In this document: in pieces, positions 9,945 through 35,613 of the stretch
Layout: each line of letters starts with the position of its first letter
How positions within the stretch are numbered: the stretch's first letter is position 1
Source: Megalonaias nervosa
Lineage: Eukaryota > Mollusca > Bivalvia > Unionida > Unionidae
Length of the DNA: 64,000 nucleotides
Direction: 5' to 3'
Assembly: GCA_016617855.1 (NCBI GenBank)
Contig: JAECUM010001098.1
Span: 1 to 64,000, forward strand
The notes under the pieces: model-generated
Seen by the model: only the letters and a program-made list of their open reading frames with translations
Database searches by the model: none
What the model was told of the DNA's origin: nothing
Translations under genes and position numbers: made by a program

Positions 9945-9953
9945 ATCTTTTCG
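9945..9953 (-). promoter_or_regulatory. purine-rich element downstream of the gene A stem-loop
   Basis: On the minus strand CGAAAAGAT starts about 12 nt after the stem-loop at 9966-9981. In metazoan histone genes a purine-rich site that pairs with U7 snRNA lies at this distance. The same GAAAAG core follows the stem-loops of genes B, C and E. Confidence 0.45.
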
Positions 9954-9965
9954 AGGCATATGAGT

Positions 9966-9981
9966 GGCCCTGAAAAGGGCC
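9966..9981 (-). terminator. histone-type 3-prime stem-loop, gene A / left TIR
   Basis: The minus strand reads GGCCCTTTTCAGGGCC: a 6-bp stem with loop TTTC, preceded by CCCAAA and followed by ACT. This fits the metazoan histone mRNA stem-loop pattern GGYYYUUHUHARRRCC at every position. It lies about 33 nt after the last likely stop of gene A. Confidence 0.7.
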
Positions 9982-10013
9982 TTTGGGTTCTTCTATTTTC
10001 TCCAGTTCTTCCA

Positions 10014-10573
10014 CTAGCTTCTCACTTTCTCTATGATTTCTTTCTTCTTCTTTTCCTTCTCTGGCATCCAGTCAGGATGTCCCATGGATCTAAATTTTTC
10101 TTGCACTTTCATCCAGTTTTGATTCAGTCTCTCAAACTCTTCTTTTTCTTTATGTTTTCTTTGTCCTTTCTCTCTTTTGCCCAGGTCTCTTTGATTTTCT
10201 TTACCTCTCTTTCCATCACCTTTCTCATCACGTCTTCAGCTTTCTTTTATTGGTTTAATCCACACTGGACAAAAGACCACTCTGTGAAATTTGCTAGGTC
10301 TTCTAAAATGCAATTCACTTGGATGACATTATCAAGGGCCTCCTTCAATGTCCCCACTCTCACATATTTAGGATGGATGAAGCCTCTTAATTTCTTCACT
10401 TCCTCCTCTATCATGCCTTTCACCAGATCCATGGCTACTTTCAGGCTGGTGACTTGACTTGTTACAAAGTCTTTGGTAACTGGATACCTCCATTCTTTTT
10501 CAAGTCTTTCCACCACGTAGGCTGCATCCACCATCCAGTACCAACTGTCTTTCAATTTATTAAACAAATCCAT
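10014..10573 (-). pseudogene. Polinton accessory gene A, helical/coiled-coil protein (broken)
   Basis: I do not recognise the family. The ATG at 10573 opens 108 codons (start MDLFNKLKDSWYW) that end in a TAA at 10247. An alternative frame then continues with a Lys/Glu-rich coiled-coil segment (for example KEIIEKVRS) to a stop at 10014, so one nonsense codon and one frameshift are likely. The start is favoured because a palindromic leader (10579-10592) like those of genes B and C lies just upstream. Its TATA box and upstream box are about 8.9 kb away at 19501-19540, beyond the nested LINE. A histone-type stem-loop follows at 9966. The role is unknown. Confidence 0.65.
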
Positions 10574-10578
10574 CTTGT

Positions 10579-10592
10579 GTCGACTAGTCAAC
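10579..10592 (-). promoter_or_regulatory. palindromic leader motif, gene A
   Basis: GTCGACTAGTCAAC (plus-strand text), a near-perfect GTTGAC-NN-GTCAAC palindrome 5 bp upstream of the ATG. Genes B (20743-20756) and C (21451-21464) have the same motif 8 bp upstream of their ATGs, followed further upstream by a shared CAGTCTGGCTA-like stretch. Confidence 0.6.
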
Positions 10593-10632
10593 GATGTGTA
10601 GCCAGACTGTACCTACTTACATTTGGATTTAA

Positions 10633-10750
10633 GTGGTGTGCGCCCGTTCGGGCATGTACCACTGGCTAATGTCCGCAAAGCGGACTGCTAAATTTTCCTG
10701 GGGGAAGGAATAGGAGCCTCATCCCCCAGGCTTTAATGTTCTCAAAGAGA
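10633..10750 (-). repeat. LINE 3-prime hairpin series, copy 1
   Basis: Four hairpins in a row: 10633-10662 (closing stem GTGGT/ACCAC, inner stem GCCCG/CGGGC on the minus strand), 10671-10685 (GTCCGC-AAA-GCGGAC), 10697-10730 (CCTGGGGG...CCCCCAGG) and about 10740-10750 (TCTC-AAA-GAGA). The same series, with compensating base changes, recurs at 10937-11057. Confidence 0.75.
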
Positions 10751-10936
10751 GCTGTTAGTTAGCCTACAGGTTGTGGGACAACTAAGTCCCAAACGACCTA
10801 CACTAGCTGGTGAATTGACTTGAATAATGAAGAGTAAAGTGCGAAACTTTTAACCTCATCAGCACACTCCTCAATGTAAGAGGAGACTCGTTGGCATACA
10901 GGTATTACCGACTGACTTACTTACTTTGAAATTATA

Positions 10937-11057
10937 GTGGCGTGCGCACATTTTGTGCATGTGCCACTGTTTAATGCCTGCATGGCAGGCTGTTAAATAT
11001 TCCTGGGGGAGGGTATAAGTGCCGCCTCCCCCAGGCTTTAATGCACTCAATGAGTGC
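10937..11057 (-). repeat. LINE 3-prime hairpin series, copy 2
   Basis: Hairpins at 10937-10967 (GTGGC/GCCAC with inner GCACA/TGTGC), 10976-10990 (GCCTGC-ATG-GCAGGC), 11002-11035 (CCTGGGGGAGG...CCTCCCCCAGG) and 11043-11057 (GCACTC-AAT-GAGTGC). Each matches one in copy 1 in place and size, but several stems differ at both paired positions. The GTAA/GTCA tail sequence follows on the minus strand at 10905-10925. Confidence 0.75.
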
Positions 11058-11509
11058 TTCTAAATGAGCCGTCAGGCAGCTGAACGGTATCTGGAATGTT
11101 CCATGCTCGCCTGATTGGTTGGCTTGTTCGAGTGGGAATAGACCCATTACACACTCATTTTTCAGTCACTTGTACCAATCGGTGAGTGGGATTTGAGGCA
11201 CGCACTCAGTTTTGCTATGAGAGTTTTAGTGCATGCACTGCACGCTGCTAAATGATTGTCCGGAATTGGAAAAGTGAGCTACAGTACAGTACAACGTCGC
11301 CCAAGAAGCCGGGAGAGGGCCGCCAAACCTCACCGGAAGGCTCTCGCAGTTGCTGGGTTATTGATCCGGGTTGAAGTTTTTTCGAATTTTGAATGTCCGG
11401 TAATTTAATGTCGAAAGATGAAGAATTTGGAGTATATTCTGTGCTGTTTATGAGGCGGAGATTTCTAAGTACCTCTGATGACAGTCATTAGTATGTTAAT
11501 TGTATATTT

Positions 11510-11850
11510 GTCACCTTGTGTGACTGGCCCTGATGGTCCTGGGCTTAGACCACCTTATAGTCTGATAATTTGGGGGTCTGTGAAACCTATTTTGTATTTG
11601 TTGAGGGCCTAACGGTCTGGGGTTTGTAACACATTGGTTTGGTTAAGTATCTGTATGTAAAAGGTTTTTTGTTTGCCACCTTGTGCGGCGGGGCCTGATG
11701 ATCGTTGGGATTTGATCACCTTATATGATACTATTTGGGGTCCTACTGTAGTTCATATGCTGCTTTACGTAGCCATTTGTGATGGCAGGCCCTGATGGTC
11801 TTGATCTTTGGATCATCTTATATCATCTAGGTATTTGGGGCATACATGAT
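11510..11850 (-). repeat. triplicated hairpin unit in the LINE 3-prime region
   Basis: Three copies of a unit with two adjacent hairpins, starting near 11510, 11675 and 11772. First stems: GTCAC/GTGAC, GCCAC/GCGGC (one mismatch), GCCAT/ATGGC. Second stems: TGGTC/GACCA, TGATC/GATCA, TGGTC/GATCA (one G-U pair). Each unit also holds GGCCCTGATGGTC-like and ATTTGGGG blocks. No coding frame is present. Confidence 0.65.
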
Positions 11851-12659
11851 TGTTGGTGGGATGACTGTCATCTTTGGTGGAGAGATTAGTTGGTGTTAGC
11901 AGGGTTAGTTTTGAGAAGAGTAGAGGATAAAGAGTAGTGGATTTTTTTTTAATTTTTTAATTTTTTTAAAAAAATCTATTTGGGGTGGGTTTGCATGCGG
12001 GATTGTTATTTAGTTCATCGTGAGGTCGCTACACAGTGAGGGGTGGGTGGGAGGCGTCATGCTGGTTATCTGGAATGTTATTGTGTTTTATTTGCGTGTG
12101 GTGTGATTATCCTCATTGCGTGATTGTGGGTAACTGAGATTTTTAACGAATGTCTTGTGTTTTGGTTGGTCATGCTGTGTGTTACCTTAAAATCCAGGTC
12201 TGTGAAGCCACGAGACCTGGAAGTGACAGTACTATACACAGCAGAGGGGTGGGCCGTAAACCGAAGCCCCCACCCCATCTCGCACCCCCTGGTTTGATTA
12301 TCAGTTTTTCCCAGAAACACCCGCGCAGTGTTTAAGGATGTTATTTGTTGGTTTGTGTGGTTTTATTGTTGATAATTTTTATATTTTATCCCTAAGTTTG
12401 GTCTCATTTAGGAATAGTAGGATATATTTATAAGTAGTAGCGATATTGGGTTTGTTTTTTCCTATTATTTCGGGGTATGTAGTTGGGGATCCAATTTCCT
12501 TCTGTTCTAGTTGTAGTTTGTTCCTAGCTTGTAGGTATTGAGTGCAGGTATTGAATATATGTCCGAGATCCTCGATTGTTTGGCAGTGGTAGCAGTTGAT
12601 GGTTGTGGGTTTAGGACCCAGGTGTCTTCCAAAGCTGCTTGCTAATTTTGTTTTGCCTG

Positions 12660-13316
12660 TTAGTATACGGTTGATGATTTTTGGTCCGAGCTGTTTGTAT
12701 TAGGTGGTTTTATGGATCTGTTAATTTCATTTAGGGTGGAATATAGTTTTCTTCCTTTATGTGTGGCATTCCATGTTTCCTGCCATTTAGCGTTGATGTA
12801 ATTTTCAGCAATGTTTAAGGTTTCGCTAGTGCTGTATTTAAGTGTGGCAGGGTTTGGGTCTTTTAGTTTTCTTTTTGCGACTCGATCTGCTTGTTCATTA
12901 CCGAGAATTCCTATGTGTGAGGGTATCCACATAAATTCTACTATTTGGTTTCTAGTGGATATTTCTTTTAATAGGCGGTAAGCCTCGGCAAGGAAGTTTT
13001 CTCTTGAATTAGTGTTTTTGTTTTTAATTGTTGTAATTACACTAAGCGAGTCGCTTATGATTACTGACTTTGGGGTGTTGTTATATTTGATCCATTTAAG
13101 TGATTCGATGATAGCCCAGAATTCTGTTGTATAAATAGAGCAGTGATCCGGTAATCTGGTTCCCATTTGTATATTGTACTCTGGGATAACTATCGCTGCT
13201 GCTGTTCTGGGTGGGTCCGGTGTTTTTGAGCCGTCGGGGTATATTTTTACGAAACCAGAGTAGGTATCTTGTATATTGCTTGCAATGATGGATTTTAGTT
13301 TGAGCTCTTGTTCCAA
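12660..13316 (-). pseudogene. LINE ORF2, RNase H domain
   Basis: Type I RNase H signature in order: YPDGSK (first Asp), TTEFWAI (Glu), ISDSLS (Asp) and GNEQADRVA (last Asp), spanning most of a 218-codon frame. In I-like LINEs this domain removes RNA from the cDNA hybrid. The frame is separated from the RT frame by a shift between about 13320 and 13560, so ORF2 is not continuous. Confidence 0.88.
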
Positions 13317-13560
13317 TTTGTTTCCATGTTCGGTGGCTTTGGTGTTTATCCTCGGTTTTGGGATGGTCCAGGGGGCTTGGTCGGGAGGTTAAGTGTATTC
13401 CTCCTGTTCTTCCAAAATTGGCATGTTTTTCCTAAGCTCTTGAATTTGTTTTCCGCCAGGAGTGTTTGGAACGAGTTTGCGACTAAAAGTTACATTGCAT
13501 TTGCTGATGGCCACCTTAGTAGGATGCGAGTTTGGGTGGCTGGATAATCGAATTGAGTAT

Positions 13561-15094
13561 CTAAGGAGCATTTCTTGCCTCCTTAATGGTAATGGCAATT
13601 GTCCAGTGAGTATGCATAGTTCGTCCAATGATGTGGAGGGTAGCTTGCCGGTGCAGATCAGCAGTGCCTTTCTTTGGATTTCGTCTAACTTTTTTCAGGT
13701 GAGCTTGAGCAGCGGAGTCATATACCTGACATCCATACTCTAGTTTCGATTTTATGAGAGCCCTGTAAATAGTTGTCAGAGTTTCTTGGTTGGATCCCCA
13801 TGTGGTGACCTTTAGGTTTTTTAGCAGATTGATGTCTTTGGTGCAATTTTTAATTAATTGTTCGATATGATGTTTCCAATTGAGGTGTTGATCGAAGAAC
13901 ATGCCTAGGAATTTGATTACTTTAACATACTTGATTATTTGATTTTGAATATAAAATTTGGGGTAATGAGGTTGTCTTTTTCTTTTAGGTGTGAAAATAA
14001 TCGCTACTGTTTTTTCCTGCGATATCTTAAACCCCCATTTATCTGCCCATCTCCTTATATTGTCAAGGCTTTGCTGGATTTCTGAGGTAACTTGATTGCT
14101 AGTGGGGTTACCGGCTCTCCATATTCCGCTATCATCAGCAAATTGAGAGATTTGTACTTTTGCTGAGATGAGGTTGCGGTCCAGGTCATTAATCATTAAG
14201 TTGAAGAGTGTGGGGCTGAGTACGCTCCCTTGTAGTGTTCCATTTTGTAAAGTTTACTCATCTGATAGGGTGTTTCCCCACTCTAGTGATGATTTTTCGC
14301 CCTGAGAGAAAGTTCTCAATCCAATTAAACATGCGTCCAGTAATGCCGATGCTGTTGAGTTTTGCAATCAGTCCTTTTGTCCAGACAAGGTCAAAGGCTT
14401 TTTCAAGATCCAGGAAAACAACTATAAGGTTTCTATCTCTTTTCCTTCTACAGTTGAATGCAAGTTTGATATCTGCTTCGAGTCTGAGTAATTGGTCAGT
14501 GGTGGACCGCTTGTTGCGAAAGCCGCACTGGTTTTCCGATAGGAGGCTATTGTGTTCTAAATGATGCTTTAATCGGTTGGCAAGGATAGTTTCCATGATT
14601 TTACATATGTTGTTGGTGAGGGAGATGGGTCTATATGAGCTAATTTCATTAGGGTCTTTTCCGGTTTTTGGGATGGGTATGACAATGGCTTGCTTCCAGC
14701 TATCAGGTAATTGACCGGTATTCCAGATTTGGTTTAGTAATTTGATGATAGTTTTGGTGATATTGACCGATAGATTTTTATAAATAATATAGCCAATGTC
14801 GTCCTTTCCTGGTGTTGTTTCTTTTTTAGACCCTAAGGCTGCTTCCCATTCGAATAGGGTGATGTCGCTATTTAACTCAGATTCTTTGGTTGCTAGGTCT
14901 TTGAATAAATGTTTAAGGGAGTTTTCTACTTCTTTCCTATGTTCTTGGAATTTTTGAGTGTGATTGGAATTGCTGCTTATTTTAGGGTAATGGTTGGCGA
15001 GCAGATTTGCTTTGTCGTTATTGCTATTTGCACCTTTAAGTTTATGGTTGATGCTAACTGTTTTTCCCCGTATAAGTTTTATTTTGTCCCACAC
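13561..15094 (-). pseudogene. LINE ORF2, reverse transcriptase domain (frameshifted)
   Basis: Two frames, 15094-14258 and 14196-13561, cover the RT. The first has the SYRPISL and FLDLEKAFD motifs (catalytic Asp of block A) and KRSTTDQLL. The second has QFADDSGIW, the FADD catalytic pair. The junction near 14200-14260 is a frameshift. Upstream, between 15095 and 15424, another frame contains a stop and a shift before the endonuclease. Target-primed reverse transcription would not be possible from this copy. Confidence 0.9.
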
Positions 15095-15424
15095 TTGCTT
15101 GGAATTTTTTTAAATATTTAGTTGGGTACAAAAATGTTGCCATGATTTTTCTTTGGCTTCTTTGATGATGTGCTTAAGGCTTTTTTCTTTGTTTTTGTAG
15201 CCTTGGAAATCTAGTGAGTTTTTTGTGTGTTTGAATTTATTGAAGGCTTTTTTCTTTTCTTTATGGGCCATTTTGCATTCATCTGTCCACCAGGGTACCT
15301 TTTGTTTGGTTTGGGTATTTTTGCCTTTTGGTATATTTAAGATGGCCGCCTCATGAACGGTTTTGGTGATATTGTTGTTGAAGGTATTAATGTTTGAGTT
15401 TTCTATTTCACTAGTGTTTATTTT

Positions 15425-16255
15425 TTAAAGGTAGTCTTTAAAATGTTCCCAGTCGGCTTTACTACATTTCCATCTCGGTGGAACCTCAATGGGGTTGTGT
15501 TGTACGGTCATCTGAAGGGAGATGATGATGGGGAAGTGGTCGCTACCTGACGTGCTGTCGTGGTCTACCCGCCAGTTGGTTAGCTGTGCTAGCTTGGGTG
15601 CACAGATTGTTAGATCGATAGCTGATAGGGAGCCATCCTCAGGGTCTAATCTAGTTTTGGAACCGTCGTTGAGGATGACTAGGTTGGATTCAGCTGTCCA
15701 AGCTTCTACCAACCTGCCTCTGTTGTCCGTTTTTCCCCCTCCCCAGAATTCACTGTGTGCATTGAAGTCTCCACAGACTATGAAGTTTTCTGTTGGTGGT
15801 TGTGATATTTGCCGGTAAGTGTTTAAGTTAATTGGGTTGGCGTTGCCTGGGTCGTAGATGTTGAAAATTTTTATGGTGATGGGTCCTAGGTTGACTGGGA
15901 CTGTCATCATCTCAAATGTTTGGCTAGTGCCTATTTGTGTTGGAACTGTTACCATCTCAGTATTGGGGAGGGTGTTTACAATGAATATTGCCAACCCTCC
16001 CCCTTTTTTCCCATTGGCTCGGTGTTTGAAAGTGCCTGGGAAATATCCTGGGATGTTAGGGATGTAGTTGGAATTTTCTGGTATGTGTGTTTCTTGGAGG
16101 CAGATAATATCTGGTTTTGGTTCTTTTTGGCTTAGTTTGTATTTTAATTCCGACAGGTTGCTGTTTAATCCCCTGCAGTTCCATTGCCAGATAATCATAT
16201 TTTTGGGGACTGTACTATCCATTCTTGTTGTTGGTTTTAATAGTGTGATTGACAA
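15425..16255 (-). pseudogene. LINE ORF2, apurinic-type endonuclease domain
   Basis: An intact 276-codon frame, the N-terminus of ORF2. Motifs of the endonuclease/exonuclease/phosphatase fold appear in order: QWNCRGL (Asn), CLQETH (Glu), VCGDFNAHS (Asp, Asn), AIDLTI (Asp) and SGSDHFPI (Asp-His). It would nick the target for priming. The frame ends at a stop before the RT domain, whereas ORF2 should run on. Confidence 0.92.
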
Positions 16256-16479
16256 TTTCGATGTAACTTACATGTGTTTGGTCAGAATTTGATTAATTTG
16301 AGCAATTAGTGTTTCTATTGTTGGTGGCCTTTTTAGGTCTAATGGTAATATTGCCTGAAGCACTTCACCAATAATGGGGCATGTTATTGTTTGTTGGCCT
16401 GAATTGGTTCGTGGTGTTACTGCTGTTTGTTTTCTCTGGTTTTGTTTAGCTGGTTCCTGATTTGATTTGGATTTATTTA

Positions 16480-18548
16480 TCAGTGGGTTTGTCTGGCTAG
16501 TTTTTGAGGGTTTTTGGGAGTCAGTTGTGGGGTGGGTGGGTCTGTTTTTTGATTACTTTTGGGCTTAGGGTGATTGTTTTGTGCTGAGTGGGTCTGTTGC
16601 ATTTTGGTTTGATTAGTTTCTAGGTTTATCTTGGTTAAGGCTTCTTTATATGGAATTAATTGTGAGTTCATCAGTTCTATCACTTTCTTTTCTTTTATGG
16701 TGTATGGGCATTCTTCTGCCCTGGGGTGGTGTTGTCCCCGGCAGTTGGCACATTTGATTGTGGTTCGTTTGCATGTGCCTCGATGTTAGCCCCCGCAGTT
16801 GGGGCATCTATGGGGGTGTCGACATTGACGGGCATAGTGTCCCCATTGTTGACATTTGGCACAGAACCGTGGTTTGTTTATGAACGGTTCAAGTCTGTGT
16901 AGTACCCCATACGGGCTTAGTTTGACTAGGAGTGGGAGTGGTGTGTCAGATTCCAATACAACTTTTGAGGTGTTTTGATTCTTGTTATTCCTAAGTCTAT
17001 AAGTTTTTGTGATCTTGTTGCCATTAGTTTTAAATTTGTTTTCCAGGGTGTTTGTGTTCATATCTTGATTGTATCCTTTTAGTGTTAATACTGCCTTGAA
17101 TTTAGTGATTGGCGGTGTATTGGGGTGTACATGTGTGGCTTTATTTTGGTTGTCAGATGTAGTTTTGGAAGTTTGCGAATATATTGCATTTTGGGTTCCT
17201 ATGCCTAGTGACCTTAAACTTTGATGTGTCCTATGTGCTCAATTTGAATGAATTTTTCTACTTGGTTTAGAGTGCTACAGTGGACAATTAGGTAGTTCGT
17301 GTGAGGTCTAATTAGTTTGAATTGCCCTTGATGTACTTTGTTCAGGGCACCTACAATGCTGGTGGTGCTTAAATAAGGCAGCCGACTACTATGGCTGTTT
17401 ATAAAGATTGTGTGGTTAGGAGAGTGGAATTTGTGGTTAGGTTTCTGATTTATTGAAGCTTGTTTTTGCCTTGCTTGGGTTTTGCATGCTTGTTTTGTTT
17501 CCTCTGGTTTTGTGGGATTTGTTAGGTTTGGGGTAGTTTCTTTGGTTGTCATGGGTAGTTTCCCCTTACCTTTGTAGCTTTTTTTGCTTATGCGGGTGTT
17601 GGTCGGGGTGGTTATTTTGGCGGTTTGTTTTTTGGGTTTTGTGTGGTTATTTGATGTTCCTGATGGACCAGGTATTTGACTGTAGTGGAACTGTTCCTTG
17701 TTTGCTATTGGTTGACTGGTTCCGGTTTGTTTTAGTGGAGGGGGTGGTTTACTAGATGGGGGGGGGGTATTTTCCTGTTTGTTGTTTGTTTGCCCCCCTG
17801 ATGTTTGTCCTGAGGGCCCAGGTGTTTGGCTGTTGTGTATTGTTACCTTTTTGTTTTTTCCTACTTCCCTTATTTGATTTTTAGTTGGGTGTCCGGAAGT
17901 TATATTTTCCCTTGGTTGGTGGTTGGTGGTGGTTGTAATCTGGGGGGGGTTGGTTGTTAATTTTGGGCGCATTTGTTACTTCAGGTTGGGTGGGGGTAGA
18001 GACTAAAGCGTCTGCGTAAGTCTTTTGGCTCATGTTAGGTGCGCATGCTGGGAGTATTGTGTTGCTAGCTCCGGCAAGATCGTTTGGCGGGGGTGGGTGG
18101 ACAACACACCCGCTCGAAACTTTCTTCTGGGGGTGTGCCTCTAGTAGTGAGAAGTGGGGGGGGGGGGCATAGTTGTGCGGGTAACCGCATTTTCTTCTGG
18201 TAGAGTGGGCACGGTATCATCTAAATCCGCATCAGATTCAATGGTTTTGTTTGGGTCTCTAAAGATTATCGGGGAGCCTGCATGGAATATTTCTTGTTGT
18301 TCTCGCAATGGTAGATTTGTTGGGGTGCTGGTCTAGAGCCCCACCAATATGGGGGTTCTTTGTTTAATTCCCAAGTTTGCACTGAAATCAAAATGCCCTA
18401 TTATTAACGGGTGGGGTGGGGTGTTAGCGTTAGCAAAGTGGTTTACAGATTGATTTTTCGGGGTCTGTTGTATACTTTTGCTCCTTTTCCTGGCTAGATG
18501 TATTCTATTAGTGAATGCCTTTTTGGTTATGCTCCAGTTTTGAACCAT
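16480..18548 (-). pseudogene. LINE ORF1 (gag-like, CCHC knuckles), broken
   Basis: Frames 18548-18333 and 17972-17214 share one register; 17061-16480 is in another. The middle part is Pro/Thr/Lys/Gln-rich and disordered. The last part carries zinc knuckles: CAKCQQWGHYARQC (C-x2-C-x4-H-x4-C), then CPNCGG and CANCRGQHHPRAEEC. A TAA at 16786-16788 splits the second knuckle. The protein would coat LINE RNA. At least one frameshift and two internal stops are present. Confidence 0.8.
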
Positions 18549-20098: not shown

Positions 20099-20183
20099 CA
20101 GTAAAGGAATGTTTATAGTCACACTACTCCACAATGACACAAATTGGCAACTTGAATAGTGTCTCTTTTCTAGAGATCTGGTT

Positions 20184-20199
20184 AGCCCTGAGAAGGGCT
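20184..20199 (-). terminator. histone-type 3-prime stem-loop, gene B
   Basis: The minus strand reads AGCCCTTCTCAGGGCT, a 6-bp stem with loop TCTC, followed by AACC and then TCTAGAAAAGAGAC (20174-20161), the purine element. It differs from the histone consensus only at the basal pair (A-U instead of G-C). It lies downstream of the gene B stop. Confidence 0.6.
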
Positions 20200-20295: not shown

Positions 20296-20734
20296 TTAAT
20301 GTTGTGGCTGGTAGCGCAGAGGGGGGTTGACTGGCTTCATTCTCCCAGTCTTCACTCTGAGGGATAGTGAAGACTTGTTGTTCCCTCTATCTTCTGTGCC
20401 AGACCCGGGGATGATGATCTGGCCTCCTTGCCTCCTGTGGACGCTGTACTTGTTGTTGTTGTTGTGGCTGTGGCTGTAACTCATATTCCTGTGGTGGTGG
20501 TGCTATTGCCTGTGGAGGAGTACTGACCATTGACTTCACCTCACACAGAGGCCTTAGCATGAGGTGAGGTAGGATCCCTCTCTTCTTTTCCTCTTCTTCT
20601 ACCTTCTTTTCCCTCTCCTCTTCTTCTTCAACTCTGGCACTTTCCGCTATAGCCTCCATAGCCAGCTCGTCTAAAAGACGCCTGGCATATTCCAGGTGCA
20701 TCTGGAGTTCTAGAAGCTTGGCGAGTCTACTCAT
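20296..20734 (-). CDS. Polinton accessory gene B, coiled-coil / poly-Q protein
   Basis: The ATG at 20734 opens 115 codons ending at 20387. The N-terminus MSRLAKLLELQMHLEYARRL resembles gene C (SRLAKLNEAYVNL). A Glu/Lys coiled coil (residues about 30-50) and a Pro/Gln-rich linker (about 75-100) follow. A different frame stays open from the linker to 20296 with a basic end, so the true C-terminus is uncertain and a frameshift is possible. The promoter has the 20-bp box, TATAAA and palindromic leader; a histone-type stem-loop follows. Function unknown. Confidence 0.6.
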
Positions 20735-20742: not shown

Positions 20743-20825
20743 GTTGATACGTCAACGTTGGGTAGCCAGACTGACGATCGCTGTGCTTTATATCCCTGGA
20801 GCAAAGACGTGAAGGAAAACATCCC
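20743..20825 (-). promoter_or_regulatory. promoter and leader of accessory gene B
   Basis: Reading the minus strand: upstream box (20825-20806), TATATAAAGC near 20795-20787, GTCAGTCTGGCTACC, and the palindrome GTTGACGTATCAAC (20756-20743), then ATG at 20734. The TATA lies about 55 nt upstream of the ATG. Confidence 0.65.
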
Positions 20826-21035
20826 CTGACACCAAAACTGACAATACCCATATTACCATCACATGGAACGAGCGGACCTAAAAGAAACACTCACGTTGAC
20901 TTTTTACTTACAAACACAGACACACACTATCGGACAAGACAGAAACGAAGTGCTTATAGACACACTTCTATTTTTTAACATAAACACAAATTTTATGGCG
21001 ATTGGATTAGTATGTCTTTTCTAGAGTGTTGCGGT

Positions 21036-21050
21036 AGCCCTGAAAAGGCT
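21036..21050 (-). terminator. histone-type 3-prime stem-loop, gene C (one base missing)
   Basis: The minus strand reads AGCCTTTTCAGGGCT, followed by ACC. It matches the gene B stem-loop with loop TTTC but has lost one base of the 5-prime arm. TCTAGAAAAGACATAC (21025-21010) follows as the purine element. It lies 36 nt after the gene C stop. Confidence 0.55.
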
Positions 21051-21085
21051 TTTTTTTTTTGTTGACGGGGAGTAATGGTAATCCA

Positions 21086-21442
21086 TTAGCGTCTAAGATT
21101 GCGTCCCCGTCTGGCAGCAGGCTTTCCCACAGGATACGGTCTGCTTCTGCGGAAAGAGAAGGAGAACTCCTTCGTGTCCACACGACAGTCGACGAAACCT
21201 CTGTCTGGCTCCTGCTGCTGTTGCTGTTGCTTCTGTTCTCTCTGCTGCTTCTGAAGTCTGTACTTCTCTGCCCACACTTCTTGTTCTTTCTTGATTTCCT
21301 CTCTGAAGACCTTTTCTATCAGGTCTTCGGTCACTTTCAACATCCTGACATTCTCTATCTCTTCAGGCTTCGGTATCAGGTTTTGCCTGACACGATGTAA
21401 ATTCACATAAGCTTCGTTCAGTTTGGCTAGTCTTGAAGGCAT
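21086..21442 (-). CDS. Polinton accessory gene C, coiled-coil / poly-Q protein
   Basis: The ATG at 21442 (MPSRLAKLNEAYVNLHRVRQ) is chosen over an upstream frame start because the palindromic leader and TATA box lie just before it. About 118 residues: N-terminal SRLAKL motif, a charged helix (EDLIEKVFREEIKKEQ), a poly-Q stretch, then an Arg-rich C-terminus ending RRGRNLRR. The architecture parallels gene B, so they are likely paralogues. The frame is intact. I do not recognise a known family; the basic tail could bind nucleic acid (inference). Confidence 0.65.
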   Translation of the reverse strand: MPSRLAKLNEAYVNLHRVRQNLIPKPEEIENVRMLKVTEDLIEKVFREEIKKEQEVWAEKYRLQKQQREQKQQQQQQEPDRGFVDCRVDTKEFSFSFRRSRPYPVGKPAARRGRNLRR

Positions 21443-21450: not shown

Positions 21451-21533
21451 GTTGACGAGTCAACAATGGATGGCCAGGCTGGAGACTGCCTCGCTTTATA
21501 TGGTTCAAACGCGGATGCGATAGAAAACATCCC
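21451..21533 (-). promoter_or_regulatory. promoter and leader of accessory gene C
   Basis: Reading the minus strand: box (reverse complement of GATGCGATAGAAAACATCCC, 21533-21514), TATAAAGCGAGGCAGTC (from 21500), then the palindrome GTTGACTCGTCAAC (21464-21451) and ATG at 21442. Same layout as genes A and B. Confidence 0.62.
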
Positions 21534-21775
21534 TACGAGTTTTTTGTTGGGTCGGAACGTTATGATAGCTAATGTCATGGTGAGGGATAGAGAGAAGTCA
21601 AAGAGCACATATTCACAGTGGGTTTTTATCAAAACAAACGACAGACACATTTTTTTCAAAACACAACATTTTTTATTCAACAAACAACCAAGAACTAACA
21701 ATTAACAATAACATCAAATTTTTTTACTTCACTAACAAATTTTTACTTAACTCACAAATAACAATTTATATAACA
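21534..21775. other. spacer between gene C and the protease
   Basis: A/T-rich with repeated AACAAATTTTTAC/AACTAACAATTAACAA blocks. No coding frame is visible. Confidence 0.4.
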
Positions 21776-22339
21776 TCAAACAAACATTTTTGGACAAGGT
21801 TGACAACGTTGTGAAGTCAAGTTAGATTTCCACTGATGGAAGTCATGAGGCCATTGATGTACACTACGTTTCCTAGCTAAAGACAAAAGATAGCCATAAC
21901 GGTCATAAAACCATCGATCTACTTTCTCATCGTTTCTAGAAGAGTTATGATTAAAATAAGTCGCTAAATGTTCTAAAGAATATCCAAGACTGCGTTGATG
22001 AAAATACACACAATATTGTCCACACACCATGGAATCTGTGCCTTGTAATTTCACATTATTGAATCGTGTCGTCTGGGCATTTCTTCTCATAAAGTCGATG
22101 ATGTCGTCTTCTAAAGGAGGTAATCCATACGAATCAAAATACTCCACACAATCCTCTTTAGGGAAGTAGACGGCTACCCAGTGGGTTCCTGGGAGATGAC
22201 TATCGTCCGTGTTGATGACATAAGCTTGATGGTCTTGAGGTTTGCGATGAGGTAGTTCATCTTTAGCACACACGACAGGATTCCAAGAAGCAGTGTACGA
22301 ACTGTTGTTCAAAAGGTAATAAAGTTCCCAGGTATCCAT
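21776..22339 (-). CDS. adenain-like cysteine protease (capsid maturation)
   Basis: An intact 187-residue frame with an ATG start. The catalytic series of the adenovirus/Ulp1-like (C5/C48) proteases is visible: His in PGTHWVAVYF (about residue 52), Asp in EYFDSYG (about residue 68), Gln in KLQGTDS and Cys in VCGQYCVYFH (about residue 107). In Polintons this enzyme is thought to process virion proteins. It is one of the few core genes here without a visible break. The capsid and HPSQ genes lie immediately upstream on the same strand. Confidence 0.9.
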   Translation of the reverse strand: MDTWELYYLLNNSSYTASWNPVVCAKDELPHRKPQDHQAYVINTDDSHLPGTHWVAVYFPKEDCVEYFDSYGLPPLEDDIIDFMRRNAQTTRFNNVKLQGTDSMVCGQYCVYFHQRSLGYSLEHLATYFNHNSSRNDEKVDRWFYDRYGYLLSLARKRSVHQWPHDFHQWKSNLTSQRCQPCPKMFV

Positions 22340-22729: not shown

Positions 22730-24169
22730 TTATCTGGACATGACCACCACATTCTCTTCGTCTTTGTCTTCGGGTTCTTCTTTCACGGTATCCTCCCATT
22801 CCATTTCAAAAGATTCTCCACCTTTCAAAGTGGGATAAGAGTCTTCCATAGTTTCTAATAGTCTGGCTTCTCTCAAACTGTTGATTTCTATGGTATTATC
22901 GAATTCGGCATACAGAATGACGTTCACCGTCTTGGTGAGAGCTTCTGCAAACTGAAGTTCCACACGCAGTTGACCGGATTTTATAGGGTGGAAATGTCCC
23001 TCGTCGCTGTCTTGGTTTGGAATGAAATCAAAAGCCCACAAAATTTAACATCCTGCATAATCTTCGTACGAAATGCCGTGACTGGTGTTGGTTCCTAGCT
23101 GTCCAGTAGCTTCCTACAGGGACAAGTACGATCTCAAGTAATTCTTCTGGGCAAAGTTAGGTTCGAAGGGTTTGGTACACAAGGTCTTGCCATCGCGACT
23201 GACTTTGATCTTGGACACTCTGTAGTGCTTAAACTCGAAGGGATTGGCAGTGACGGCTCCGTTGAGGGCTGCATTGCTCACGATACCAACGATTAAACGT
23301 TTGGGTAAATGTCCATGGATTAGATGATCTTCGATCTTAGATCGGAGTTCAGCAGCAATGGTGAAAGTTTTCACTTCCACGCGTCGTATCGGGTACTTGG
23401 CGGTCGTTCTGCTCAACGTGTGACTGATGTCGTTTCCCGCTTTAGGTAACACTTCTACGCGGCGCACGTAAAGTCTGGCTACTTGGATGATGGTTTTGTA
23501 CTCGTTGGCATGAGCCATCAAATAGAAAGCGATACTGCTGCGATTCAGTCACAGGTGGATATCCACTCCGTTTAGCAAATACTTGTCTTGCAACCACATG
23601 TCCAAATGCAAGCGATCCATTAGTTCTAAACTACGTCCTTGCGGGATTTTCTTTCTACGGTCGTTAAAGCCCACATTGTGAGGATCGTCATCTGCTGTCA
23701 GGGCTGTGTCATTAAATTTGTCCTCGCTTGCTGTGTCAGGTTTCCAAACCACGCAAGCATTCAGATGAGTGTTCTTGGCTTCTTTTCCGTACGTCAAGAG
23801 ATTTTCTAGGTACGCTCGGTAAGGGTAAGTATCCATGCTACTGCTGGCGAGTTTGTTATTCAAGTACAAATCCACTTCGCTGAACAAGGAATGCATGAAA
23901 CTGTTGACGGGAGCAACTCTGGCATCGGCTCCCGTATTGGTGTTGTCCGTTTTGATCACTTTCAGTTTCAGGTACAAGTAACTGCTATTCAGATCGATGC
24001 AATCTTTGAGCTGTCCTTTGATTTCAAACTCGATGGGAGCTAAATCCGTCAAAGAGGAGACGGGATGAAATTCTACCCATCGGGATTCTCGCATCGTCAT
24101 CATGGTGGGTGGCATGGCAAACAGATCCAGTTCCGACTTAGAACAGACGCAAGACTCTCGAAGCATCAT
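22730..24169 (-). pseudogene. Polinton capsid protein (F54H12.2-like family), three nonsense codons
   Basis: One register stays aligned for 480 codons from the ATG at 24169 to 22730, interrupted only by TGA (23549-23551), TAG (23114-23116) and TAA (23045-23047). Family-typical motifs include FHPVSSLTDLAPIEFEIKG near residue 35, YPYRAYLENLLTYGKEA near 120, YPIRRVEVKTFTIAAE in the second part and AEALTKTVNVILYAEFDN near the end. This is the protein often annotated F54H12.2-like and considered the jelly-roll major capsid protein of Polintons; the fold assignment is from family knowledge, not seen here. No frameshift is evident. Confidence 0.85.
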
Positions 24170-24214: not shown

Positions 24215-24929
24215 GTCTAAGTCTCGGACGGTTCTTCTTTTCTTAGTCTTTCTAGCTCTGGGGGTGGGTGTGAAGTCCTCTGAAGGGGTGTCTTCGTCGT
24301 GTCTTTCTGCCTTGTCCTTGCTGTGGCGTCAAGGAAGTAGGAATGTCTGAGTCGGCAGCGTCCAGAGCATTCATAGGTTGGCCCAAAACGTTCCAAGATG
24401 CTGGCTTTGTTTCGGGATTCTCGGTGGTGAAAAAATGAATGTCACGTTTCTTTAATACATTTTGGAAAGCTTAGTTCAGAAATTCGGTGCCTTTGTCGGT
24501 TTGCCATCGAAGAGGGTGACGACCACTTTGTTTCAACACTAGTTTGAGGGCTCGCACTAACTCAGTGCTCGATTTGAAAGTCAATGGCAAGACCCATGCA
24601 AATTTGAAAAAAACGTCCATGACACAAAGGAAATATTTGTAGCCGCGATTGTAGGTTGCCAAATGAGAGACATCGGCTAAATCAGCTTGCCATTGATGAT
24701 TGATACCCTCTACTTAGGTGCGACTTCGGGAAAATTTTCGTCGAATGGGTTTGTGTAAGGTGTACGTGGCTTGTTCTTGTAACCATCGTTCTACTTGAGG
24801 TAAACGAACACTTTTCAGTCGAGTTTTGGCAGCACGATACAATTTCTGAACTCCTCCGTAAATGCAAGCTGGGATGGATCGTAGTAAATGCTGGCTAACA
24901 CCTTGTCCATTTTTTAATACGTTATCCAC
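24200..24929 (-). pseudogene. retroviral-type (rve) integrase, truncated
   Basis: The frame from about 24929 has the DNA-binding N-terminal part with TYTLHKPIRRKF (about residue 55), typical of Polinton integrases. The core follows in the frame to 24471: NRGYKYFLCVMDVFFKFAWV, and RWQTDKGTEFLN with the second catalytic Asp. A TAA at 24471-24473 follows. The region with the catalytic Glu (ILERF) lies in yet another frame. Downstream of it the expected C-terminal part is missing; instead an unrelated basic tail (FTPTPRARKTKKRRTVRDLD) runs to 24200. So the gene is broken by a frameshift, a stop and a deletion. Confidence 0.82.
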
Positions 24930-30530: not shown

Positions 30531-31010
30531 TCACAATGAACTATCGGTCTTGGACGTTGTCCCTTTTAATACTAGTCGTAATGAAGTCTCGAGCTTGTAC
30601 ATCGTTCCTTTTTTATGCCACGTTTTGGAAGTCTTCCTGTTTTTCTTCCTGGACAACGGTACTACCTTCTCTAAGGTACCGTCATACCTGAACCGTAGTG
30701 TGATGGGTGGAAAGGCCATAGAAAGGTAAGGACAGTGCGGAGACCATCGAGTATGTTCCAGAATAGCTGAATCTTTATAGATACATCGATCCATACGCAA
30801 CCTCAGACCGCAACTGAAACACTGTACTTCGTATTCCAATCCAATCTCAGGTCCCAAGTAGACAAATCCTTTTCTAGCTAAAACATTCGCAGTAGGTAAT
30901 TCTTCCCTATCCGTGGGTCATTTATGAAACGTTTCCAATCGACTGGCACAATTACTACAATCAGGCAAGAAGACAGGAAAATGGTATAGTTTGAACTTGA
31001 GTACTCAGTG
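30531..31010 (-). pseudogene. BIR-domain (IAP-like) gene 1, 5-prime truncated
   Basis: A BIR domain with SRLETF, a TGA where the conserved Trp is expected, LARKGFVYLG, then CFSC and HTRWSPHC (C-x2-C, H-x6-C) near 30750-30830. The C-terminal extension is Lys-rich, ending at 30531. Upstream, only about 100 bp separate it from the polymerase stop and no ATG is in frame, so the N-terminus is missing compared with gene 2. The segments before both BIR cores share FPV-LP, showing a tandem duplication. Confidence 0.8.
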
Positions 31011-31016
31011 GGTCTC

Positions 31017-34000
31017 TCACTCGATTGTTGCTGTGTCGAAGTCATCCTTCTTGTTGGTGACTATCGACTTGGAACCATTCTTTTTTATACCAGCGTGTCC
31101 GTACGGTAAAGTAAAGTGGTTGAGAAGCCGTACTCGCTTTGTAAATACTCGATTTGATAGACCTTTTTCAAAGGGTCCACTGACGATTTGGTGTGTGGGT
31201 AAACGTACAATCTTGTGAAGTTCGTAGGTGGTCACTTTAAAATTTCGATCCTGTCCAGACTGCAAGGCTTCTTTCAATACCCCAAAGTTTATCAATCGAT
31301 CGGTGCCATAATTGAGAGTCAATCCTTTCACTTTACACTCCGTGTGCACTTCTCCTTGTGGGTCCCGGTATTTGTAACCGTAAATTTTAGGACCGCCACT
31401 AGCAAAACTTAGAATCTTGTCGTTGGGGTGCTCGTCCGTCCAGGCTCCTAAACGGTCTCCTTCGATGTCAGGGTGTCGGTGACCCAGACGATCGATGTAG
31501 ATGCAACTGTCCGTGTCAAAATACAGTACACGATCTCCTAATTGGTGTAACGCTTCGTACAGTTTTAAGCGAGCATGGGCTGTCACGTAGGCCGCAATGA
31601 TGACATTTCCAAATTCGTCAGCTTCTCCAGTTCTTCTTCGTAATTGACAAGATCAATTCCTCACGAACGACTTCCACGTGTTTCATGTATTTGGTTTTGT
31701 CGTAAATCATCTGGAAGTAGCGGGAAGGTTCCGTCAAATATTCCGTCTTGGGTAAACACGGTCGTTGTGCCATTTTGCCCCACAATCAATTCAACATTAC
31801 TTTGGCAAACAATCTCCTTCGTTTTTCTCGATGTGGTCTAAAGTGATGCCTTCCTGCTCCCAGTTTTTCTCTCTCAATTTCTTTTGGTCTTCGGGAGTCT
31901 GGCACCAGGAAGGATATCCACTGGCTTCTTGTTTCAGTTTTAAAAAGGCATCCACGTAGTCTGCGAAAATGCTTTTCTGAGTCTCGTCGCCCTTGTGGAA
32001 TTTTTTTCTTTTTTTTTCTTGGGAAAGTGGTAAATTTCGTACACTGCTAACAGTTGGTATCCCAAGTCCAGAGCTTTGAACAATTCCACGCTGACCCACG
32101 TTCCCGTTAAGGCGCGTTCTTCCTGAGTGTGCTGACAAGGTCGGTCTTGGTTGCACGTTTCGGCACAAGTACGACACAAGGGAAACATCAGTTTTCCTTG
32201 GCAATGGTGAGGTAAAACGGGATGGTACAAGTCCGTGGGAGGCAAGACTTTGCACTTGATCAATTCTTCGTATTGTCGAATGTTGTCCAGGTCGATGTGT
32301 TCCGTCAGCAATTGAGGGTGCCCTGCGAAAAAGTGACAATATTTGCACACGTAAGGATACAGCCAACACACCGTCCAAGTATTTGATTTCTTCTCCTTTC
32401 CCCTCATCGGCTTGGTACAGCAAACAGGTGCCATTTGTCCGTCCTCCGTACAAACTGTCCATCGGGTTCAGTGGGTCCACCAGCTTGTAACTTTCCACGA
32501 TGCGTTTAAAGTCGGGATCGGTTTTCAATCGCTGATCGTACTCGTGTTCCCACATTTCCACCACTTGGTATCCTTGCTCTTCTAACTTCAATCGCCGGTG
32601 AGAAGTGGCCTGATAGAAGTCTTCCATAGTCCGTTGTAAAAACTGATTTTTAGTGCCACGTTGAGGGTAACAGATGGGACATCCGTGAAATAAGCACCCG
32701 TTAAACTCGTAGACGATCTTAGGGTTTTCGAAGTCCCAACCATCCACTGAATACGTTCGGATGGGTTTTTCGCCTTCTCCGTTGAGAGCGTGTTGGATCT
32801 ATTTGTCTTCCTTGTCGCACAAGTAATGTAACCAGCGTAGGGCTTTCACCGAATATTGACGTTTGACAAAGTACGTCGTTTGAGGGCTTATGACAGCTAG
32901 GGTGTTTTCGGGCATGAATCTTTGGCGGTACACTAAGGAACACGCTTTGGCAATGGTGCAGGCTTCTTTCAAAGGATCGATCCCTCCGTGCTCCATGAAC
33001 AGTTCTCGAAAGTTTCCACAGCAACGCCGTAAAATGTCCACGTCGGAACGACAATACTTTAACATTTCTTCATGGAAGTCGAAGTGGTCCGAGGCGTGAG
33101 TCTGGTACCAAGCGTAGAATGCTTCTCGTTGTTCGGTACGCATGTTGTCGGGGTCGTAGTAGTGATCATCAGGCAAATGGGGTAGAACGGCGTGTTGATT
33201 GGTTTCGGTATTGAAAAAGTGCGGAAATAGACTTTGGTCATTTCTATCATTCCAAACGTTTTAGGCATTCGACTCAATGGCATGGGTAAGTTACTCATCG
33301 AATCTTTAAACTGCACTTGTCCCACTTGCATGGAAATGATTTTGGCTCCGTTCAAAGTCACTTTAGGACGTTCGTTACTTTGTTCCGTATAGTATCTGAG
33401 AAGAAATTGCCCATCGTATCCCGAGAAATTGTGAGCCATCACCGTGGCATAGCGATGGTAATCTCCGTAATGTTCGATGTCCCCTTGGCTACAAGTCTCG
33501 TCGATGGGGTATAAGATCCATTGGGCGAAATCGGCTAAAGATAGGCACTTGGATGCACTTCTCGCACGCTCGATAAGCCACGCAGAAATTAGGAATGTGA
33601 ATACCGGTCTCTTGCATGCATTCAAAATCGAAAAAGATGAAATTCCCCTTCTTCTTCTGGTCATCTTCCTCTTCATGTTTGGAATGGTATTTCTGAATGT
33701 AGCATTCGTGTTCCAAGACCAAGATTGGGTGACAAATGTGACATCATTTCTTTCCTGAACATACGTGAGCCTTCGTATTATTGGCACGTATCACTTGTCC
33801 ACACGTTGGGCACAATCTCAGGAGTTGACAAGCACATTTCTGCTGTGAACCTTGAATTTTCAGATGTTGTTGGTAACAGGCAGGGCAGACAAAAGTGAAT
33901 TGGCAAGCTGGGCAATGCACTCGTTCTTGTCTTTCGTCCAGACAGGGTTTAGAGGCCAAACATCCCTCACATTTCGATCCACAATGCTTGTGTTGCTCTC

Positions 34001-34858
34001 GATTGTTATAGCCATAGTCACATTTCTCAGAGTTATAATCGTATCCCAGGAACCCGGTGATACTGGCAATGGTATCAAAATGTTCATTGTGATGATAGAC
34101 GTGAATGTATTTTCCGTCTTTGAAATCTTTGCCTCGAAACAACAGAGGTCCGCGCACTTCTTGAGCATGCACTTTCAAGGTGTAGCGTGGAGCTAAGACA
34201 TCTTGCATTTTTTGCAATACAGGAATGCCACAGGGTGTGTCTTTGGATATCCCCGCTTGCTGTAACAGGAGTTCTACTTCTCTTTGTTGTTTGGTTCGGT
34301 TAGATTTTCGAATGTTCTCCCACTCTCTTTTCCATTCTACCGTGTCGTTCTTGTCGGCATACGTTCGTCCTACGATAATGGCACGGGCTAAACACATCTT
34401 GTCTTGAGGGTTAATTCGGACGAGGTTCTTTTTGGTGCTGAGAAGGTCGTCCACCAATAACACCGTTTTGCGTCCGGTCCCTTGGGGAAGAGAAATGTGG
34501 GTCATGAACAGTATTCTTTTCCGTCGGTGATGTGAAACTTGTCGTTGGATTGTTGCATGTGTTGCATCTTGTCGATGACTTTGGAAGGTGTCAATTCTGT
34601 TGGGGTGCTAAACTCGATCCAAATGGGGGATTTCAAACTGTCGTAATGAATGGGAAGTCTCAGGCGATCGTCTTCTTTAGCTTCACATTACTGTTTCAAT
34701 GTGGTTAACAAGGAAGAGAGAAAATCCACTAAATCCCAATTAAAATCGACCTCTTCTGGAAGTAGACTTGTGCTGACTTTGGTAACCACTGCTATATCAT
34801 CGCTTCTCGTCTCCACGGCCGGTGCACCCCAATTCATCGTCTTCTTAGGTTCTGTCAT
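31017..34858 (-). pseudogene. protein-primed type DNA polymerase B, heavily frameshifted
   Basis: About 1,280 codons, in the family range. The ATG at 34858 (MTEPKKTMNWGAP) is followed by a TAA at 34688-34690, then a frame from 34505 with a Cys/His-rich zinc-like region. The exonuclease motifs lie in separate frames: FFDFECMQE (Exo I), VMAHNFSGYDGQFLLRY (Exo II) and the RSDVDILRRC type (Exo III). Polymerase motif A (LYPYVCKYC, near 32380) and motif C (YFDTDSCIYIDR, near 31520) are recognisable. At least seven register changes separate the pieces. It would replicate the element by protein priming if intact. Confidence 0.92.
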
Positions 34859-34909
34859 GTTTCAAAAACAATGTGGCATCGATTCACTGCGCAGAGACGC
34901 TAGCGCACC

Positions 34910-34916
34910 TATATAG
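34910..34916 (-). promoter_or_regulatory. TATA-like box of DNA polymerase B
   Basis: CTATATAGG on the minus strand about 52 nt upstream of the ATG at 34858. The promoters of polymerase B and gene E face away from each other within about 230 bp. Confidence 0.4.
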
Positions 34917-35038
34917 GGAATGTGACATCACAGGCAGCTCTCTTCAGATTGGAAGACAGACTCCGCGCTGTGGCTGAATTTTGCAACGCGTGTTTGGATT
35001 GGTGAAAGATCTCAATCCGTTTCGATCCGCTCTTCCAC

Positions 35039-35044
35039 TATAAA
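35039..35044 (+). promoter_or_regulatory. TATA box of gene E
   Basis: TATAAATCAACGCAGTT at 35039-35055. It parallels gene A (TATAAATCATAGCAGTC) including the CAGT start-like motif 5-6 nt further on. A CCAAT-type motif in reverse (GGATTGG) lies about 40 bp upstream. Confidence 0.5.
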
Positions 35045-35088
35045 TCAACGCAGTTCACTTCGTTCCCTTCACCTGTTCTCGTCACAAG

Positions 35089-35336
35089 ATGTGGACAAAC
35101 GTTCAATCATCTACTCTCGTATCGTCGATGCTGTTCCGTACGGACTTACCCATGTATGTTAAATCATCATGGACAATCATCCGGATCACCGAGACGACTG
35201 TTTGGAAAAGAAGGATCCCTGTGGAGAGACAAGGCTGTTTGAAGTGAGCCCTCATCTACAGAGTAGAGGTTAGACGAAGTCTGAGGAAGAAAAGAAGATC
35301 TATGCGATGAACTCTAAGTTAACGGAATGGTGTTAA
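35089..35336 (+). pseudogene. small divergent Polinton gene E (broken)
   Basis: The only plus-strand gene of the element. The ATG at 35089 opens a short frame; a second ATG at 35169 (MDNHPDHRDDCLEKKDPCGE) gives a charged frame with one TAG at 35271-35273 and a stop at 35334-35336 (ending NSKLTEWC). The stop lies 16 nt before the histone-type stem-loop at 35353, and the TATA box 50 nt before the first ATG, so a compact transcription unit is likely. Unknown family. Confidence 0.45.
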
Positions 35337-35613
35337 CAAAAAAGAACCCAACGGCCCTTTTCAGGGCCACTTATATGCCTCGAAAAGGTATATTAAAAAA
35401 AAATTGCCATATATGTGTATGAACCCTATCCATCTTGTCCTAGGGAGGTCTTGGCATGCTCATTCTCCTTGTCCCTATCCATCTTTGCCCTATATCATCC
35501 CAGCGTGTTTTTCCTTCTTTGGTCTCATAGGCCCTATAAATTTTTGCCCTATATTGTCCCAGGCCAATTTTTCCTTCTTTGGCCTCATGTGCCCTAAAGT
35601 ATCCCCCTTCACT
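35337..35613. repeat. Polinton right terminal inverted repeat
   Basis: Inverted match to 9768-9994, ending TAAAGTATCCCCCTTCACT. It is about 50 bp longer because CCTTCTTTGG...CTCATAGGCCC-type sequence is present twice (near 35511 and 35571). Confidence 0.9.
35353..35368 (+). terminator. histone-type 3-prime stem-loop, gene E / right TIR
   Basis: GGCCCTTTTCAGGGCC on the plus strand, preceded by CCCAAC and followed by ACTTATATGCCTCGAAAAGG, the purine element starting 11 nt later. Mirror image of the left-TIR stem-loop; both face outward. Confidence 0.7.

Follow-up and report, generated by a model that had tools for sequence, protein, structure and literature searches.

Histone-type stem-loops at the 3' ends of small genes in a Polinton of Megalonaias nervosa

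The Polinton and its genes

The window, i.e., the whole stretch of 64,000 nucleotides analysed, comprises positions 1-64,000 of Megalonaias nervosa contig JAECUM010001098.1 (assembly GCA_016617855.1). It holds a Polinton with long terminal inverted repeats. Inverted-repeat comparison paired the left repeat (9766-9999), which carries the gene A hairpin, with the right repeat (35335-35615), which carries the gene E hairpin; the arms 9766-9814, 9785-9878, 9893-9938 and 9929-9999 pair within 35335-35615 with an agreement of 87-96%. Both ends of the element adjoin simple repeats of the ATGT type, and no clear 6-bp target-site duplication was seen at them by eye.

The Polinton core set of family B DNA polymerase, rve integrase and adenain-like protease is present, on separate pieces. 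The adenain-like protease gene (21776-22339, minus strand) has 381 relatives, the best 120 of which were listed, several of them with a precomputed assignment to Pfam PF00770. The integrase core fragment (24471-24713, minus strand) matches Pfam PF00665 (rve) with an E-value of 2.8e-8. In the polymerase region (31017-33790, minus strand) the frames are broken; two pieces match PF03175 (E 8.4e-6 and 4.4e-4, both scoring below the PF03175 cut-off) and phrog_1907 (E 2.3e-16 and 3.2e-5). The putative major capsid protein gene region (23114-24169, minus strand) is split into several frames and yielded no match in a Pfam search; its N-terminal piece matches six of nine distant, protease-bearing Polinton fragments at 23-47% identity, and a putative packaging ATPase piece matches four of the nine, the names of both pieces having been given by eye.

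Besides the core genes, the element carries five small genes, A to E, without a significant match to any known family. Gene A (10014-10573, minus strand), delimited by translation, is broken in this copy by a stop at 10247, with its last part in another frame; longer open frames exist in four other copies (L040, L048, L058 and L060). Gene B (20387-20734, minus strand) is an open frame of 115 residues without Pfam or PHROGs match. Its first in-frame stop (20387) lies 187 nt before the hairpin and the second stop of the same frame about 30 nt before it; in copy L032 an open frame stops 34 nt before the hairpin. Gene C (21086-21442, minus strand) is open and encodes 118 aa with predicted helices and a basic C-terminal tail. 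Its relatives (P0001-P0012) are 71-83% identical to the query across 54-100% of its length, and a fold model (pLDDT 77, pTM 0.32) showed helices and two strands but was not good enough to start a fold search from. Gene D is a remnant recognised by translation (34690-34858, minus strand, lower end approximate), its 3' part and hairpin being absent here; long D frames with a hairpin in copies L035 and L062 make it the fifth hairpin gene. The gene E region (35089-35337, plus strand) encodes 77 residues in open copies and a shorter frame here, and is preceded by TATAAA at 35039-35044.

In the window, the start codons of genes A, B and C are each preceded by a shared palindromic element (all on the minus strand). 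It reads GTTGACNNGTCAAC directly before the start codon of gene A (10579-10592, one mismatch) and recurs before gene B (20743-20756, one mismatch; TATAAA at 20787-20792) and gene C (21451-21464, no mismatch; TATAAA at 21495-21500). BLASTP detected no similarity between the B and C proteins, and none of the listed frames carrying A-E motifs contains an LxCxE motif.

Signals at the gene ends

The hairpins 3' of gene A (9966-9981, minus strand) and gene E (35353-35368, plus strand) both read GGCCCTTTTCAGGGCC, fit the histone stem-loop pattern GGYYYUUHUHARRRCC at every position, are preceded by CCCAA(A/C) and are followed by ACT. Their assignment to the histone type in the initial annotation was borne out by the covariance search it had proposed: against Rfam RF00032 (curated threshold 34 bits), A scored 40.1 bits (E 2.4e-8, match 9941-9986) and E 37.6 bits (E 2.2e-7, match 35348-35393). 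As the two lie inside the terminal repeat arms 9929-9999 and 35335-35405 (87%), they have one shared origin and do not count as independent.

The hairpins described for genes B and C are present as well. The gene B hairpin, AGCCCTTCTCAGGGCT (20184-20199, minus strand), can be aligned with seven other rows (six distinct copies), and the gene C hairpin (21036-21050, minus strand), one base short in the window copy, is intact in copies L025, L097, L098 and L105; the RF00032 scores of 24.3 bits for B and 12.7 bits for C (at 21012-21055) are below the threshold. Chance, which the initial annotation had kept as an explanation for B and C, is ruled out by the presence of both hairpins in other genome copies. 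A G-C pair opens the stem in A, D and E, an A-U pair in B and C.

A GAAAAG, the candidate histone downstream element, had been placed about 10-15 nt past each hairpin, and the measured distances agree: 13 nt past the stem for gene A (9947-9952, minus strand), gene B (20165-20170, minus strand, inside CTCTAGAAAAGAG and supported by alignment) and gene E (35382-35387, plus strand), and 14 nt for gene C (21016-21021, minus strand, inside CTCTAGAAAAGA, placed by the covariance-model alignment). All four window hairpins thus have a purine-rich downstream element at 10-20 nt. The window holds two matches to the strict pattern, three to the loose pattern and three to the loose pattern plus GAAAAG; 100 first-order Markov sequences of the same length averaged 0.01, 0.09 and 0, respectively. 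Each hairpin can be read in one frame as a P-F-(Q/S)-G peptide. A coding function was considered and rejected: the hairpins of B and C sit past the stops of their genes, and that of C is also off the gene's frame.

The protease gene ends differently from the hairpin genes. It is followed by an AATAAA poly(A) signal (21672-21677, minus strand in the window) in all six copies examined, a count that leaves out L102, where the match covers residues 1-22 only. In a stretch that begins 60 nt ahead of the hairpin start and extends 100 nt past it, by contrast, neither AATAAA nor ATTAAA occurs in any of eight gene B rows (seven distinct copies) or in four of six gene C copies. The other two gene C copies have AATAAA near the hairpin, one gene B copy (L096/L014) has it just past the examined stretch, and the window copy of gene E has ATTAAA 24 nt past the stem, where a fallback poly(A) site is therefore possible.

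Other copies and histone genes in the host genome

A search of the host's own genome with RF00032 gave 75 scored matches, 66 of them above the threshold; none of the 75 loci carried core-histone peptide motifs. The exact A/E hairpin together with GAAAAG occurs 4,998 times in the host genome (reversed control, 0). On 15 of the 18 contigs with at least two listed places of the exact hairpin, an inverted pair lies 16.5-20.4 kb apart. Among 85 distinct hairpins, 71 were assigned to genes A-E via upstream peptides and 14 were not; AAAAG starts 14-16 nt past the stem in 78 of the 85, as compared to a background of 8.5% of randomly placed 30-nt segments in these loci that contain AAAAG. A-type hairpins elsewhere are followed by GAAAAG in 12 of 19 cases and by AAAAG in 17 of 19. 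Across the copies of A-E the stem-loop consists of a 6-bp stem and a 4-nt loop, with GAAAAG 13-15 nt past the stem, and the gap between stop codon and hairpin on the sense strand is typically 13-50 nt in open copies and larger where frames are broken.

Because the 75 loci were picked by the hairpin model, hairpin conservation among them is biased, and the Polinton copies are related rather than independent. Among copies not picked by their own hairpin, the hairpin is present for gene B in four of six (two of the four, L097 and L104, with an altered base; the other two, L098 and L103, in which it is damaged or missing, are partial matches) and for gene C in five of five (three intact, one degraded, one B-type). 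Leaving out matches that end more than 15 residues before the query end, it is present in six of nine such copies for gene D and two of four for gene E, and damaged or missing in the remaining three and two. The matching gene ends anticipated for related Polintons were thus found, hairpin and GAAAAG together, in other diverged copies within the host genome, including copies unselected by hairpin. Over five copies of gene B the identity is 95% in the stem-loop, 96% in the spacer and 100% in the GAAAAG block, as compared to 74% on both sides; over five copies of gene C the corresponding values are 78%, 75% and 87%, with 71% and 65% in the flanks.

The sole clear host comparison is the H2A gene L088, which is H2A.X-like (ending in SQEY). 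Its stem-loop is identical to the A/E hairpin and is followed by GAAAAGAT 12 nt on, as compared to 13-14 nt in the window. Genes of the H2A.X-like class can have both stem-loop and poly(A) 3' ends. Two H2B-like host loci (L085 and L090), which may be pseudogenes, have a similar hairpin and downstream signal pair. The SLBP domain is present in the host (PF15247, E 1.9e-15 and 1.2e-6 for two matches on one contig). The search for a host U7 snRNA gave a best score of 25.7 bits (E 1.8), below the cut-off, in a search that also yields matches in 12 of the 14 prokaryote genomes used as controls. Pairing of the GAAAAG regions with the U7 ends of human, fly and sea urchin exceeded shuffled sequences at the 5% level in one of 12 tests (gene B with human, 0.037).

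Outside the host genome, RF00032 matched none of the nine distant Polinton fragments; these also have no recognisable A-E genes, so the absence of matches there is no test of the signal. Eight fragments with a protease turned up among prokaryote MAGs in a scan of genome contigs; they probably stem from host contamination. Searches of IMG/VR with gene C, the capsid piece, two hairpin patterns and the protease alignment returned only one weak protease match (L001).

Interpretation and comparison with known systems

One class of Polinton genes probably uses the host pathway for histone 3'-end formation. That the element taps histone-type mRNA processing, as initially proposed, is supported by the signals themselves, by the matching gene ends in diverged copies, by the identity of the A/E hairpin with that of a host histone gene, by the host SLBP domain and by the contrast with the AATAAA of the protease gene. 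On this reading the element has two kinds of gene end: an ordinary AATAAA for the protease gene, and presumably for the other core genes, and a histone-type signal for the small genes A-E. In the likely mechanism, host SLBP would bind the stem-loop, U7 snRNP would pair with the GAAAAG element and the histone cleavage complex would cut between the two, leaving A-E mRNAs without poly(A). Through SLBP, these mRNAs would persist and be translated chiefly during S phase, the time at which the DNA of the element can be copied. We give an even chance to a more far-reaching two-class programme, in which core genes with poly(A) signals would be combined with five small genes disguised as histone mRNA and made, stabilised and translated only during host DNA replication; as the genome holds thousands of these hairpins, histone-type ends of the element may be more numerous than those of the host itself, and competition for SLBP and U7 snRNP could result.

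The hairpin might instead be a terminal-repeat element with another role (recognition by the integrase or terminal protein, replication, or a stop for outward transcription) that merely resembles the histone signal. The two strongest window hairpins do sit in the terminal inverted repeats, and the inverted hairpin pairs on 15 of 18 listed multi-place contigs point the same way. However, at a distance from the repeats, genes B, C and D are followed by the same signal in sense orientation; the first stem position of B and C is changed yet still paired; and hairpin and GAAAAG together match the host H2A gene. Recognition of DNA accounts for neither the sense orientation nor the GAAAAG spacing. 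We consider a terminal-repeat role very unlikely. About as unlikely is the view that the gene ends go back to a single capture from a host histone gene and have since been copied with the element as inert passengers. An inert passenger is expected to decay with its flanks, whereas the stem-to-GAAAAG block of gene B is 95-100% identical next to flanks at 74%, and five different gene ends, with spacers differing between genes, have retained both hairpin and GAAAAG. What this view does explain is the close likeness to the host H2A and H2B-like ends, and one capture with internal duplication would account for the likeness of the blocks that flank, on the 5' and 3' sides, proteins without detectable similarity. 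As the origin of the signals, capture from a host histone gene is likely, and it is no rival to their function.

It is also conceivable, if rather doubtful, that the genes have dual ends of the kind found in some histone variant genes, where the hairpin would serve during S phase and a poly(A) site farther downstream at other times. The absence of both poly(A) signals from the examined stretch in all gene B rows and in four of six gene C copies argues against this; the ATTAAA past the window gene E stem, the AATAAA near two gene C hairpins and beyond one gene B hairpin, and the dual-ended class of the H2A.X-like host gene are in its favour.

If the use of the histone 3'-end pathway holds true, this would be, to our knowledge, the first virus-like element to use a replication-linked, poly(A)-independent mRNA pathway, and Polintons would gain a direct route to S-phase expression. 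It would become possible to test how the expression of integrated Polintons is timed to replication of the host, a question of long standing. RNA-seq with poly(A) selection would miss such mRNAs, and Polinton transcripts could therefore be under-counted.

In the open-licence PMC literature, no paper was found that links Polintons with the histone stem-loop, SLBP or histone mRNA. A term search of PMC11071308 found neither histone nor stem-loop; one of PMC11071296 found no stem-loop or SLBP, and histone twice, for histone-like proteins.

The element resembles Polintons, Mavericks and adintoviruses in its terminal inverted repeats, family B polymerase, rve integrase, adenain-like protease and putative capsid-type protein, with relatives found via the protease and capsid pieces, and differs from them in its histone-type 3' ends, which were not found for them in the literature searched. 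We know of such ends from histone genes alone. With metazoan replication-dependent histone genes it shares the 16-nt stem-loop, the flanking bases, the position after the gene and a purine-rich element 13-15 nt past the stem; unlike these, A-E are small Polinton genes without known-family match, in a mobile element with terminal inverted repeats. The H2A.X-like histone gene of the host has the same hairpin and GAAAAGAT, but is a cellular gene of a class with a poly(A) alternative.

The decayed Polinton and its stem-loops

The window contains a decayed Polinton bounded by terminal inverted repeats (9766-9999 and 35335-35615), with pieces of polymerase, integrase and protease as well as capsid- and ATPase-type pieces, which were named by eye and match distant relatives. 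Retrotransposon-like frames on the minus strand (12660-18200, about 12.7-18.2 kb), with reverse transcriptase, endonuclease and RNase H recognised by eye, lie between the small genes A and B. Gene A is broken by a frame shift, and gene B meets an in-frame stop early and another about 30 nt 5' of its hairpin. Gene E falls short of the length seen in open copies, and gene D is a minus-strand remnant (34690-34858) that has lost its 3' end, runs into polymerase-side sequence and lacks the hairpin. The element also holds a BIR (inhibitor of apoptosis) domain gene (30531-30917, minus strand; Pfam PF00653, E 3.3e-10). Just outside it is a 478-residue open frame with leucine-rich repeats (35799-37235, plus strand), likely a host receptor-like gene, and two tRNA-like Rfam matches (4958-5029, plus strand; 6685-6757, minus strand) are possibly tRNA-derived SINEs.

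The initial annotation had read the hairpins ending genes A, B, C and E as histone-type stem-loops. In a search with the Rfam histone 3' stem-loop model (RF00032) those of genes A and E indeed scored above threshold; those of genes B and C were matched too, but B below threshold and C weakly. GAAAAG, the candidate downstream element, was found after all four stems as annotated, with a spacing of 13-14 nt. Because A and E carry the same terminal repeat in duplicate, their hairpins count as a single independent observation in the window, next to those of genes B and C. Markov sequences of window length contained the strict hairpin pattern 0.01 times on average, and none of 100 held the loose pattern plus GAAAAG.

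Stem-loops in other copies of the element

The RF00032 search of the Megalonaias nervosa genome (2.19 Gb, 54,709 contigs) reduced 423,121 first-look candidates to 75 scored matches, 66 of them above threshold, a choice that favours good hairpins and makes the set no measure of stem conservation; among 14 control genomes there was a match in one and none over the cut-off. The 75 loci (1.0-3.0 kb) contained no core-histone peptide motifs. They hold 87 hairpins (85 distinct), of which 71 distinct ones were given to genes A-E by upstream peptides, an assignment that is not blind because the motifs derive from copies already seen; 14 were unassigned. AAAAG starts 14-16 nt past the stem in 78 of the 85, against 8.5% of random 30-nt stretches from the same loci.

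Many copies chosen independently of their own hairpin also bear stem-loops at the matching gene ends. Reading 4 kb inward from ten loci picked through the gene A hairpin revealed a recognisable gene B in six, four of them with its hairpin; the B match extends to the query end in three of the four and to residue 73 of 111 in the other. One of the four hairpins has a changed stem base, still pairing G-U, and one a changed loop base. The two without were L098 (30 residues of B only) and L103 (84 residues, reversed). Five loci had a recognisable gene C, with the hairpin intact in three, degraded in one and replaced by a B-type hairpin in one. The gene D hairpin was present in 6/9 loci picked by the E hairpin, two of the six (L018, L019) with identical flanks and a mismatch in one pair, and the gene E hairpin in 2/4 loci picked by gene D. 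Identity in five gene B copies was 95% for the stem-loop, 96% for the spacer and 100% for the GAAAAG block (upstream 74%, downstream 74%); in five gene C copies it was 78%, 75% and 87% (flanks 71% and 65%). The stem opens with an A-U pair in B and C and with G-C in A, D and E, both sides being changed.

GGCCCTTTTCAGGGCCA followed by 10-14 free bases and GAAAAG has 4,998 exact occurrences in the genome, a count of hairpins, not of elements; the reversed control pattern has none. Among the places listed, 18 contigs carry at least two, with a minus/plus pair 16.5-20.4 kb apart on 15 and 24.0, 26.5 and 40.0 kb apart on the other three, which fits two terminal hairpins on an element of about 20 kb.

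Two apparent classes of genes

AATAAA lies 3-98 nt past the protease stop in 6/6 copies examined, whereas the interval from -60 to +100 nt relative to the hairpin start contained neither AATAAA nor ATTAAA in gene B (8/8 rows, 7 distinct copies; one copy has AATAAA just past this stretch) or in four of six gene C copies. Gene E of the window has ATTAAA 24 nt downstream of the stem. The palindrome GTTGACNNGTCAAC stands directly 5' of the start codons of A (10579-10592), B (20743-20756) and C (21451-21464), is absent elsewhere within the element at up to two mismatches, and recurs with two mismatches at 234-247, outside it; it is possibly a control element common to the three genes, in the promoter or the 5' UTR. 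TATA boxes lie upstream of B, C and E. The hairpin genes therefore seem to form one class, by promoter and by end; the B and C proteins have no detectable relationship.

Host processing and host histone genes

Use of the host histone 3'-end pathway by the hairpin genes is the simplest account. The host genome encodes the stem-loop-binding protein SLBP; its search yielded no U7 snRNA, and pairing of the Polinton's downstream element with U7 ends from elsewhere, not the host's, had no clear outcome. S-phase timing, the least certain step, would follow from the known behaviour of SLBP and histone mRNA. Probably a host histone gene end was captured and later spread among the small genes. Nine distant Polinton fragments had neither an RF00032 match nor genes A-E, so histone-type ends may be lineage-specific; gene C relatives in metagenomes show 71-83% identity.

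Host comparison and copy counts refer to one host genome, in which PF00125 gave 11 histone-like matches; the few core histone genes found may reflect absence from the assembly or missed genes. The comparison comprises one clear gene, the H2A gene L088 (H2A.X-like, since it ends SQEY), and two possible H2B-like pseudogenes; of the H2B-like loci L085, L087 and L090, at least L090 is broken, and the stem-loop persists in L085 and L090. L088 has a 16-nt hairpin identical to that of Polinton genes A and E, with CCCAAC 5' and ACC 3' of it and GAAAAGAT 12 nt downstream of the stem. In L085 and L090 the hairpin is of this kind too (last base changed in L090) and is followed by CTGTAAAAGAAAT and CTCTAGATAAGATG; the downstream element of L090 closely resembles CTCTAGAAAAGA, that of genes B and C. 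Good support exists for the Polinton signal being of the same type as the host's.
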